Shown here piece by piece: positions 16,925 to 33,027 of a stretch of 37,590 nt of DNA. The stretch lies in assembly GCA_902536515.1 (NCBI GenBank), contig CACAXU010000009.1, positions 1 through 37,590 of the forward strand, given 5' to 3'. Every line of letters starts with the position of its first letter. The stretch's first letter is position 1. This DNA comes from an uncultured Litorivicinus sp. (GTDB taxonomy: Bacteria; Pseudomonadota; Gammaproteobacteria; Pseudomonadales; Litorivicinaceae). The notes under the pieces were generated by a model, which had not been told where the DNA came from, ran no database searches, and saw only the letters and a list, made by a program, of their open reading frames with translations. The position numbers and the translations under genes were made by a program.

Positions 16925-17339
16925 ACTGCACTTCTCTCTGAAACTCTCAGATACTGGCGAACTCGTGGATTCAACATTTGAAAAAAAGCCCGCTGAACTG
17001 GTGATTGGCGATGGTAATTTGCCTGCCGCTTTCGAGGCGGTGATTCATGGGATGAGAGCAGGTGAGCGGAAAATCGAACGGATTGAACCCAAAGACGGGT
17101 TTGGTCAGCATAATCCATCCAATGTGCAGCGAATTCCGAAAGATCAGTTCGACCCATCCGTTGAATTATCGGAAGGTCTGGTGGTGAGTTTTCAGGATAA
17201 AGCCAAATCTGAGTTGCCCGGTATCGTCTCGACAATTGGTGACACGATGGTGACTGTTGACTTTAATCACCCGCTCGCAGGTCGTGATCTTGAGTTTGAG
17301 GTCGAGATTTTATCCGTTGCTCCATCGGGGACGCACTGA
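16893..17339 (+). CDS. fkpB: FKBP-type peptidyl-prolyl isomerase FkpB (SlpA/SlyD-like)
   Basis: A 148-residue isomerase and chaperone with an FKBP domain split by an insert-in-flap domain. Conserved segments are [21 protein letters not shown], the flap around DGFGQHNP, and [20 protein letters not shown]. It lacks the His-rich tail of SlyD and has the length of E. coli FkpB. I use the ATG at 16893 inside lspA; a TTG at 16878 is also open. The stop shares a base with the ispH ATG (TGATG). Confidence 0.93.
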
Positions 17340-18286
17340 TGCATGTGACGCTTGCGAACCCGCGTGGTTTTTGCGCTGGTGTTGATCGAGCGATTGACAT
17401 CGTGAATCGAGCGATCGAGGTTTTTGGTACGCCGGTCTATGTCCGTCATGAAGTAGTCCACAACAAAACGGTCGTTGACGACTTAAAGGCTCGGGGTGCC
17501 ATTTTTGTGGATGAACTCGATCAAGTCCCTGATGACACCATTGTCATTTTCTCTGCCCATGGGGTGTCCCGTGCGGTCCAAGACGAGGCTGCGCGGCGTC
17601 AACTGAAAGTATTTGACGCAACCTGTCCTTTGGTAACGAAAGTGCATATGGAAGTGATCAAATTTTCCAAAGAAGGGCGAGAGTGCATTTTGATTGGTCA
17701 CGCAGGGCATCCGGAGGTTGAAGGGACGATGGGCCAGTTTGATACCTCAAATGGTGGAACCATCAAGCTGGTCGAGGATGAAGATGGTGCGCGGACAGTT
17801 CAGATCAATGACCCAACAACTGCGTCATTCGTGACACAAACGACACTTTCTATGGACGATACAGCAAGGATCATCTATATCTTGCGCGAGCGGTTTCCTG
17901 AGATTCAAGGACCGCGGAAAGACGATATCTGTTACGCCACTCAAAACCGTCAGGATGCCGTCAAGCGTTTGGCGATTGCACACGATCTTGTCTTAGTGGT
18001 TGGTTCCCCAAACTCATCGAATTCCAACCGTCTAAGGGAGCTCGCGGTGCGTTTGGGCTCGCAGTCCTATCTCATTGGCGGTCCCGAACAGATTGATCCG
18101 GCATGGGTTCAGGCAGCTACAGCCATTGCGGTCACAGCGGGCGCATCAGCACCTGAAAATATCGTACGTGCAGTGTGCGTACGATTGGAAGAACTGGGCG
18201 CTGAGACAATCTCGCAGGAGCGCGGTGTTGACGAATCAATTCAATTTTCATTACCGAAGGAATTGAAGCTTCACTCTGTCGACTAG
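17339..18286 (+). CDS. ispH: 4-hydroxy-3-methylbut-2-enyl diphosphate reductase IspH
   Basis: A 315-residue iron-sulfur enzyme for the last step of the MEP pathway, making IPP and DMAPP. The three cluster cysteines are Cys12 (RGFCAG), Cys96 (DATCPLV) and Cys198 (DDICYAT), at positions almost identical to E. coli. [17 protein letters not shown] and SNSNRLRE are also conserved. It supplies precursors to IspB, encoded upstream. It closes the murJ-to-ispH run; downstream lies the short prepilin-like ORF. Confidence 0.98.
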
Positions 18287-18344
18287 CGCCGAAGTTCAAT
18301 CGACTCCTTGTTTTGCTCTGCTGTTCTCCCCAGACGAAGATGGT

Positions 18345-18449
18345 ATGCGCGGATTTGCTTTATCTGAGAGTTTGATGGCTCTTTCCATGGTCAGTCTTCT
18401 ATTCATTGTGATGTTGAGTCGAGGGCCTGATCGAGAGAGCGGTGATTGA
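18345..18449 (+). pseudogene. 34-codon prepilin-like ORF, probable remnant of a minor pilin (PilV/FimT type)
   Basis: The ATG at 18345 opens a 34-codon frame starting MRGFALSESLMAL and continuing as an unbroken hydrophobic helix to about residue 24, then SRG and a short charged tail. G-F at the cleavage point with glutamate at mature position +5 is the prepilin peptidase signature of type IV pilins, and ESLMALS resembles PilV/GspI-type minor pilins. Normal minor pilins have over 100 residues, so the globular domain is missing. A weak GAAG ribosome site lies 5 bases upstream. The spot between ispH and thiO holds the fimT-pilE minor pilin cluster in P. aeruginosa, which makes a deletion scar likely. 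A functional micro-pilin cannot be excluded. Confidence 0.55.
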
Positions 18450-18518
18450 CCAAATCATTTGCATGGACAGAGTGTAGTTCGTTCTGACGAAATCCTTTTT
18501 GCATGCAATAATTTAGGC

Positions 18519-19613
18519 ATGGTGCAAGCAACGATTTCCCCGTGCGACGTATTGATCATTGGCGCAGGTGTCATGGGTATGCTGTCCGCCTTGGAATTGG
18601 CTGAAGCGGGCCAGGATGTTGTGGTCCTTGATAAAGGTCAAGCAGGACTCGAGGCCTCCTGGGCTGGCGGGGGGATTATTTCACCCCTCTATCCATGGCG
18701 TTATTCCCCTTCAATTAGCACGTTAGCGACTTGGTCTCAGAACGCCTTTCCTGATTTGATTGCGCAGCTCCGCGATTCCACAGGGATTGACCCGGAACTC
18801 CTAGCAAACGGGATGTTGGTGACAGCAACCAACGAACGCGAGCAGGCCCTCGCTTGGGGTGCTGGTGTATCGCGTGCGGTTATCGAAATTACGGATGACG
18901 AGGCTCAAGCGTTAGAGCCCCACGTAGTTCTCAATGAAACTCCTCTATGGATGCCGCGTGTATCGAGTGTGCGTAATCCACGCATGGGTCAGGCCCTGAG
19001 ACTGATGTGTCTCAATCATCCACATATTCAACTCCGTGAATATCATGAAGCACAGGTGTCCGGCTCTCTGTCATTGCCTGTGGTCTCAAGTCATGGTCAG
19101 CGAGTTGTAGCGGATCGAATTGTACTCACAACGGGAGCATGGACTGGGGATCTGCTGTCAGGATTGGATCTCACCTGTCCGATCAAGCCTATGAAAGGCC
19201 AAATGCTTTTATTTAGCCCATGTCGACTTGTTAATCGTGTGGTTTTAGCCAATGGTCGCTATGCGATTCCACGTGCAGATGGACGGATTGTCTTTGGCTC
19301 GACGCTTGAGGATGTGGGTTTTCAAAGAACGCCGGATCGTGATGCGTTCGAATCACTGCATGCATCAGCACTCGCTATGATTCCTGCACTCAATAACGTT
19401 GACTTGGAAGCCCAGTGGGCTGGCTTTCGGCCAGGCTCTCCTGAGGGTATGCCGTGGATCGGTGCAATGTCAGAGAAGTTATGGGTGAATTCGGGACACT
19501 TTAGAAATGGTGTAGTCTTGAGTCCTGCATCCAGCCGACTATTATGCGATCTGATGTTGGATCGAACGCCGATCGTTGATCCTTTACCCTATCAACCTCG
19601 GAACACACAATGA
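18519..19613 (+). CDS. thiO: Glycine oxidase ThiO (FAD-dependent, thiamine synthesis)
   Basis: A 364-residue flavoenzyme that oxidises glycine to the imine used for the thiazole part of thiamine. The dinucleotide motif GAGVMG is at 15-20, and the ThiO signature SWAGGGIISPLYPWR follows near 49-63. The C-terminal GFRPGSPEGMPWIG and HFRNGVVLSPAS segments bind FAD and close the active site. I use the ATG at 18519, which gives the standard N-terminus; the frame is open back to the TGA of the pilin-like ORF, and no strong ribosome site precedes the ATG. It overlaps nadE by ATGA. No other thi gene is in the window. Confidence 0.92.
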   Translation: MVQATISPCDVLIIGAGVMGMLSALELAEAGQDVVVLDKGQAGLEASWAGGGIISPLYPWRYSPSISTLATWSQNAFPDLIAQLRDSTGIDPELLANGMLVTATNEREQALAWGAGVSRAVIEITDDEAQALEPHVVLNETPLWMPRVSSVRNPRMGQALRLMCLNHPHIQLREYHEAQVSGSLSLPVVSSHGQRVVADRIVLTTGAWTGDLLSGLDLTCPIKPMKGQMLLFSPCRLVNRVVLANGRYAIPRADGRIVFGSTLEDVGFQRTPDRDAFESLHASALAMIPALNNVDLEAQWAGFRPGSPEGMPWIGAMSEKLWVNSGHFRNGVVLSPASSRLLCDLMLDRTPIVDPLPYQPRNTQ

Positions 19614-31476: not shown

Positions 31477-33027
31477 ATGGCGAAAGATCAGTTAATCATT
31501 TTTGACACAACATTGCGTGATGGAGAGCAGAGTCCGGGCGCTTCAATGACTCGTGATGAAAAAGTTCGCATTGCCAAAGCGCTCGAGCGTCTTCGCGTTG
31601 ATGTCATTGAAGCCGGCTTTGCTGTAGCGAGCCCCGGTGATTTTGAGGCCGTCAAAGCGGTTGCGTCGGCCATTCAAGAATCGACTGTCTGCAGCTTATC
31701 GCGTGCACTTGAACGAGATATTGAAATTGCTGCAGAAGCTATCGCCCCAGCACCAAGGCGTCGGATTCATACATTTATCGCAACGAGCCCGATACATATG
31801 AAGCACAAGCTCAAGCTAGAGCCTGAGCAAGTGATTAAGCAGGCTGTCTATGCAGTAAAAAAAGCGCGACAATATACGGATGACGTCGAGTTTTCCGCAG
31901 AAGACGCGGGCCGCTCAGATATCGACTTCCTTGCTCGAGTGTTCGAAGCCGTAATCGATGCTGGTGCGAGTACATGTAATTTTCCAGACACGGTTGGATA
32001 TAACCTCCCATTCCAAATCGAAGAGACCGTTCGGATACTTCTATCGAAAATACCGAATGCTGATAAAGCGATTTTTTCAGTGCACTGCCACAACGACCTG
32101 GGAGTCGCTGTTGCGAATTCACTAGCGGCTGTCCGTGCCGGATGTCGTCAAATTGAATGTACGATAAATGGACTTGGCGAGCGTGCAGGAAATACGTCGC
32201 TTGAAGAGGTAGTGATGGCCGTCAAAACGCGATCTGACATTGTCGATGTTGAAACACATATTGAGACACAGCATATTCTCCCCGCGTCACGATTGGTCTC
32301 AACTATTACGGGATTTCCAGTTCAGCCAAACAAGGCAATCGTTGGTGCGAATGCATTTGCGCATGAGTCTGGTATTCACCAAGACGGTGTTTTGAAGCAT
32401 CGCGAAACCTACGAAATCATGCGCGCTGAAGACGTGGGCTGGAATACCAACAAAATGGTCTTGGGTAAACATTCGGGACGTGCTGCTTTCAAATCTCGAC
32501 TTGATGAACTTGGGATTGTTCTGGCCGATGACCAAGCGCTGAATGAGGCTTTTGCACGCTTTAAGGACCTGGCTGACCGAAAACATGAAATCTTTGATGA
32601 AGATCTGCAAGTATTGATGAATTCCCAGAAAATGGAGGCTGACATTGCGCGCTACGATCTCGCAGACCTGTCTGTCACATCAAAAATGGGAGTGGCTCCA
32701 ACAGCACACCTTAAGCTACGGGTCGACGGCTCTGAGATTGATACCTCTGCAGAAGGCGACGGTCCAGTCGACGCGGTGTATAAAGCGATCGAGTCCGTTG
32801 CAAATTCTGGTAGCGACCTTCAGCTATATTCGGTCAATGCCATCACAACAGGAACGGACTCTCAAGGTGAAGTGACGGTTCGTCTTGAAAAATCCGGTCG
32901 AATCGTGAATGGACTCGGCGCGGATACTGATATTGTTGTTGCCTCGGCGAAAGCCTACCTTCACGCATTGAATTTGATTGAAAGACCATTGGATAAGGAG
33001 CATCCACAAAAGTCCGAGGGCATTTGA
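31477..33027 (+). CDS. leuA: 2-isopropylmalate synthase LeuA
   Basis: A 516-residue enzyme that condenses 2-ketoisovalerate with acetyl-CoA, the first step of leucine synthesis. [13 protein letters not shown] near the N-terminus and HCHNDLG with metal-binding histidines at about 203-206 are diagnostic. The C-terminal third is the LeuA allosteric domain ([18 protein letters not shown] ... [21 protein letters not shown]), so leucine feedback inhibition is expected. I use the ATG at 31477: TTGGAGAA then stands 8 bases away, while the ATG at 31471 is too close. Its stop overlaps the next gene (TGATG). Confidence 0.97.

Follow-up and report, generated by a model that had tools for sequence, protein, structure and literature searches.

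A prepilin-like mini-ORF between ispH and thiO of an uncultured Litorivicinus species is very probably the deletion scar of a minor-pilin operon

A 34-codon open reading frame (ORF) with a type IV prepilin cleavage signature, located between ispH and thiO in the genome of an uncultured Litorivicinus species, is almost certainly a gene relic, the putative scar of a deletion that removed a minor-pilin operon. Judged by its homology, the mini-ORF is the 5' end of the first gene of this operon, here called g1, and not an independent mini-gene. A sequence-only reading of the window, by which we mean the whole stretch of 37,590 nucleotides analysed, had left the choice between the truncation scar of a minor pilin and a micro-pilin or pilin-derived membrane peptide. 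The first of these is borne out by homology and position, as full-length g1 occupies this position in sister species, by identifiable breakpoints, by the disappearance of the rest of the operon, by the loss of the Shine-Dalgarno site and by independent damage to a second pilus operon, pilMNOPQ, which is also broken.

The mini-ORF and its surroundings

The mini-ORF was confirmed at its coordinates with Gly at -1, Phe at +1 and Glu at +5 of the predicted cleavage site and an uncharged stretch reaching residue 25, and it is the only one among the window ORFs of 25-60 codons to carry the prepilin signature. As a mean of 0.02 such ORFs per 37.6 kb arises by chance in 100 first-order Markov sequences of the size of the window, the observation is correct and requires an explanation. 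With the N-terminal signal of type IV prepilins (TIGR02532, PF07963) the mini-ORF shares the Gly, Phe and Glu residues and the hydrophobic helix, but it scores only 13.0 bits against TIGR02532, below the curated cut-off of 16.3, and does not possess a head domain. A Pfam search with the 34 residues gave no match, including to N_methyl (PF07963), and NCBIfam returned sub-threshold prepilin matches only. The comparison with pilin profiles suggested earlier thus pointed to prepilins, at scores that were all sub-threshold, and it was homology to the full-length gene that decided. An Rfam search of the window and two relatives found no RNA family. The features of the locus are as follows.

17339..18286, plus strand: ispH (lytB), the upstream flank and neighbour of the presumed ancestral cassette (Pfam LYTB, 1.1e-93)
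18335..18341, plus strand: decayed Shine-Dalgarno site GAAGATG, three bases 5' of the ATG (GGAGGTG in relatives)
18345-18449, plus strand: mini-ORF of 34 codons between ispH and thiO, MRGFALSESLMALSMVSLLFIVMLSRGPDRESGD
18345..18431, plus strand: g1 codons 1-29, which cover the prepilin cleavage site and a portion of the N-terminal helix, recognized by tblastn with relatives
18399..18464, minus strand: chimeric frame of 21 codons, MQMIWSITALSIRPSTQHHNE*, which starts as the convergent fimT-like gene
18427..18437, no strand: proposed deletion junction with a single copy of a short repeat, CTGATCGAGAG
18432..18449, plus strand: codons 30-34 and stop (RESGD*), from the far side of the proposed deletion, in frame by accident
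18519..19613, plus strand: thiO (FAD-dependent oxidoreductase), the downstream flank (Pfam DAO, 6.3e-61)
For comparison, locus L033, 2731-3093, minus strand: convergent fimT-like gene with the GRTR/GRLR end, alike in relatives

The upstream flank ispH is the best match in 54 of the 58 genomes searched. The longest ORF of thiO extends from a TTG over 18459-19613, of which the first 20 codons are spacer; the aligned relatives point to the ATG at 18519, and not the TTG at 18459, as the most likely translation start.

An intact minor-pilin cassette in related species

Nine sister species of the genus (Litoricola group, Pseudomonadales) harbour a four-gene minor-pilin cassette between ispH and thiO (G001, G013, G009, G002, G003, G005, G020, G015, where it is cut by the contig end, and G008), with g2-g4 read only in relatives whose contig continues past g1. 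Full-length g1 of 134 codons occupies this position in G001, G013, G009 and G002, with orthologues in G003, G005, G015 and G020. The second gene, g2, has about 169 codons with a start near G(L/F)LAE in most species, g3 about 113 codons with the start RGSALI or similar, and g4 115-142 codons with the start GFSLIE, scoring above the TIGR02532 and N_methyl cut-offs. Profile-profile comparison of g1 with PilV, FimU, PilW and PilX led to no assignment (probabilities 1-23%) and, by the same approach, g1-g3 are too diverged to be assigned to PilV, PilW or PilX; g4 is the only clearly prepilin-like gene of the cassette and equally close to three classes. The protein model of the intact g1 of G020 consists of a long helix from residue 4 to 54 followed by strands, at low confidence (mean pLDDT 55).

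Between g4 and thiO, the opposite strand bears an additional gene, about 120 codons long, which ends with GRTR or GRLR and in one species matches GspH just under the cut-off. Its GRxR-like end provides a lead that it may be FimT, for which a GRxR DNA-binding motif has been described (PMC8897410). The gene product starts with MQ(L/I/M) and does not display the canonical G/F/xxx/E cleavage signature.

Beyond the genus, 73 of 80 Pseudomonadales loci have an ORF with a prepilin motif downstream of ispH, as do 22 of the 23 loci that reach thiO in the region between the two genes, so that a minor-pilin operon in this position is probably ancestral. In Pseudomonas aeruginosa, the corresponding locus is fimU-pilV-pilW-pilX-pilY1-pilE next to ispH, with fimT and thiO. 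The relatives of the window species share with this operon the ispH and thiO flanks, prepilin-type genes in a row and a FimT-like neighbour of thiO, but their cassette is small, with the codon numbers given above, and does not contain a gene of the size of pilY1, while the window retains no more than the first 29 codons of g1 plus a few of the fimT-like gene.

The proposal to align this gap in close relatives was thus rewarding, as G001 and other species carry full-length g1 there. The outcome is the opposite of the missing conservation in sister species that had been named as grounds for refutation, with the qualification that the full-length gene is conserved and not the mini-ORF. With respect to the individual residues, g1 of the relatives starts with MRG(F/Y)AL(S/T)(D/E). 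Eight relatives have Asp at position +5, with Glu confined to the window and G008, which makes the textbook Glu a recent change; of the three signature residues whose conservation was to be checked, this one is not conserved, the conserved state being Asp.

A junction at a short repeat

In a tree of seven locus proteins, G008 and the window genome are sisters with a local support of 1.0, and their IspH proteins are 97% identical. The g1 remnant is 87.5% identical to G008 by tblastn (E=7.6e-14). The ispH-thiO gap of the window aligns to that of G008 as two pieces with an overlap of 11 bases, the left piece (window 18254-18437) with the start of the G008 gap at 87.8% identity and the right piece (window 18427-18580) with its end at 90.9% identity, and 1,790 bp of G008 between the two pieces are absent from the window. 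Both flanks of the intact locus are therefore joined in the window with identifiable breakpoints. In G008 the left copy of the repeat, CTGATC(T/G)AGAG, reads CTGATCTAGAG and the right copy, at a distance of 1,790 bp, CTGATCGAGAG, with the overlap in the window identical to the right copy; within the ispH-thiO stretch of G008, the core CTGATC is confined to these two edges, with one occurrence at each.

In the simplest reading, the ancestor would have possessed ispH, the minor-pilin genes g1, g2, g3 and g4, the convergent fimT-like gene and thiO, and in the lineage of the window one event, slippage or recombination at the repeat, would have deleted 1,790 bp between the two repeat copies. Such an event would have taken codons 30-134 of g1, g2-g4 entirely and most of the fimT-like gene, cut near its start, and would have fused codons 1-29 of g1 to spacer, which by chance adds five further codons before a stop. 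The pilus would presumably already have been useless before the deletion. The description of the mini-ORF as the export and assembly module of a pilin without its globular head consequently needs amendment: the signature stands, while the head is missing through deletion of codons 30-134, which g1 of the relatives possesses, and not by design; likewise, the module comprises codons 1-29, with codons 30-34 (RESGD) coming from beyond the deletion. The chimeric frame on the minus strand is original only before the junction, compared with the 120 codons of the fimT-like gene in relatives.

In shrinking genomes, pseudogenes arise by deletion between short direct repeats. The window resembles such cases in the junction at the repeat, the remnant of the first gene and the decay of related genes elsewhere, and we noticed no difference.

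Translation signal and constraint of the remnant

In the six closest relatives, the sequence 5' of the ATG is GGAGGTGGT with the Shine-Dalgarno site GGAGGTG, versus GAAGATGGT with GAAGATG in the window, so that the translation signal looked for in a functional prepilin is degraded. The ATG and the reading frame of the 29 g1 codons are intact, which is a counterpoint to a relic. Over these 29 codons, window and G008 differ by two non-synonymous and four synonymous changes, compared with 0 or 1 non-synonymous and 4-14 synonymous changes between intact genes (G001/G013, G001/G015, G009/G002 and G001/G009). This leans towards a relaxed constraint on the remnant, in numbers too small to carry weight, and the dN/dS comparison proposed earlier could be made over 29 codons only, where the count does not decide on a loss of constraint. 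Most likely, translation of the remnant has fallen below a useful rate, and the remnant would be without function.

Decay of pilus genes in the window species and across the genus

The window is contig 9 of an assembly (G000) of 1.07 Mb in 60 contigs that is 61% complete. The species was represented by this single assembly, and the deletion was seen in one genome. On contig 8 of the same assembly (31841-32342, minus strand; L191:9842-10343), a second deletion scar with several in-frame stops affects pilMNOPQ between the gene for penicillin-binding protein 1A and an aroK-like gene. What remains is the beginning of a PilM-like gene, ~92 codons long, and the end of the gene for the PilQ secretin, 77 codons long, and about 2.4 kb of the pilM-pilQ region of G008 are missing. 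A profile search of the 61% complete genome gave no match for N_methyl, T2SSE (PF00437), T2SSF (PF00482) or Peptidase_A24 (PF01478), and the assembly, in which the pilABCD neighbourhood with coaE is missing, yielded no intact copy of a prepilin, PilB, PilC or PilD. As the assembly is 61% complete, the absence of PilB, PilC and PilD from the species is not proven. Of the three components that the sequence-only reading had wished to see checked, PilD and PilB thus remain without a match in this incomplete assembly and PilQ is reduced to its terminal codons. The relic appears to reflect a loss of the entire type IV pilus by the window species, in whose genome pilMNOPQ is damaged independently.

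In the case of G008, the whole cassette is retained, with a TAA within the otherwise open frame of g1 and a broken frame of g4. At about 173270-174170 of its contig 30 (L197:9273-10171), pilB and pilC are entirely absent beside pilD and pilA lacks its N-terminal part, which leaves G008 without a major pilin and an assembly ATPase at that locus. It keeps pilMNOPQ along with the damaged minor-pilin cassette, and another pilin-type system resides on contig 20. The pilus genes of G008 are decaying as well.

No trace of the cassette was found in G012, in G014 and in a clade of five species (G004, G007, G011, G016 and G017); the placement of these lineages on the tree requires at least three losses besides the one in the window. 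Whatever the exact number of losses, the locus can be seen across the genus in an intact, a damaged, a scarred and an empty state. Among the carriers, G001 (99% complete) has PilB as its sole assembly ATPase scoring above the cut-off and lacks a second, PilT-like match, so that its intact type IV pilus may lack a retraction ATPase. A second ATPase together with two short platform proteins is present in G003 (contig 35), G005 (contig 101) and G020 (contig 6), adjoined by a secretin in G003 and G005; this looks like a Tad-type pilus, separate from the minor-pilin system.

Alternative explanations

That the 34-residue peptide is still made, cut after Gly3 by a prepilin peptidase and inserted into the inner membrane to serve a separate function would be consistent with an intact cleavage signature and helix, in frame, with +1 Phe and +5 Glu of the canonical type. 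However, the short form occurs in no relative, its head has been lost by deletion, the Shine-Dalgarno site is damaged only in the window, PilM and PilQ are broken, and neither a prepilin peptidase, an assembly ATPase, a platform protein nor another prepilin was found in the 61% complete genome. The micro-pilin, which has no support beyond the remnant's own sequence, is thus not upheld and we consider it very unlikely. A variant in which the remnant is translated and cut by the prepilin peptidase of another system, to yield a membrane helix of 31 residues with a new role such as membrane or peptidase regulation, is given a very slight chance.

Short hydrophobic ORFs are common in spacers, and the lack of a Pfam match, with sub-threshold NCBIfam matches only, would suit a chance ORF with a coincidental likeness to prepilins. 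Homology to full-length g1 at the same locus, on the DNA as well as the protein level, refutes this explanation, to which the chance expectation given above is also opposed, and leaves it a vanishingly small probability. An assembly error hiding a full cassette in the real genome might be suspected in a fragmented and incomplete assembly that stands alone for its species, but an imperfect repeat of 11 bases is far too short for an assembly collapse, substitutions and an upstream gap of 5 bases also set the remnant apart from G008, the Shine-Dalgarno site is lost and pilMNOPQ has been broken independently, which makes such an error extremely improbable.

Implications

Cumulatively, the scar of the minor-pilin operon represents gene loss of an ordinary kind, for which the record at this one site is unusually good, and a new class of peptides is not supported. 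A literature search on pilus loss in marine bacteria yielded nothing usable. The odd annotation between ispH and thiO is settled, as the gap contains a trace of pilus loss, with the full and already damaged operon present in the sister species. With its independent losses and intermediate stages, the genus is suited to study how surface machines are dismantled in marine bacteria with small genomes.
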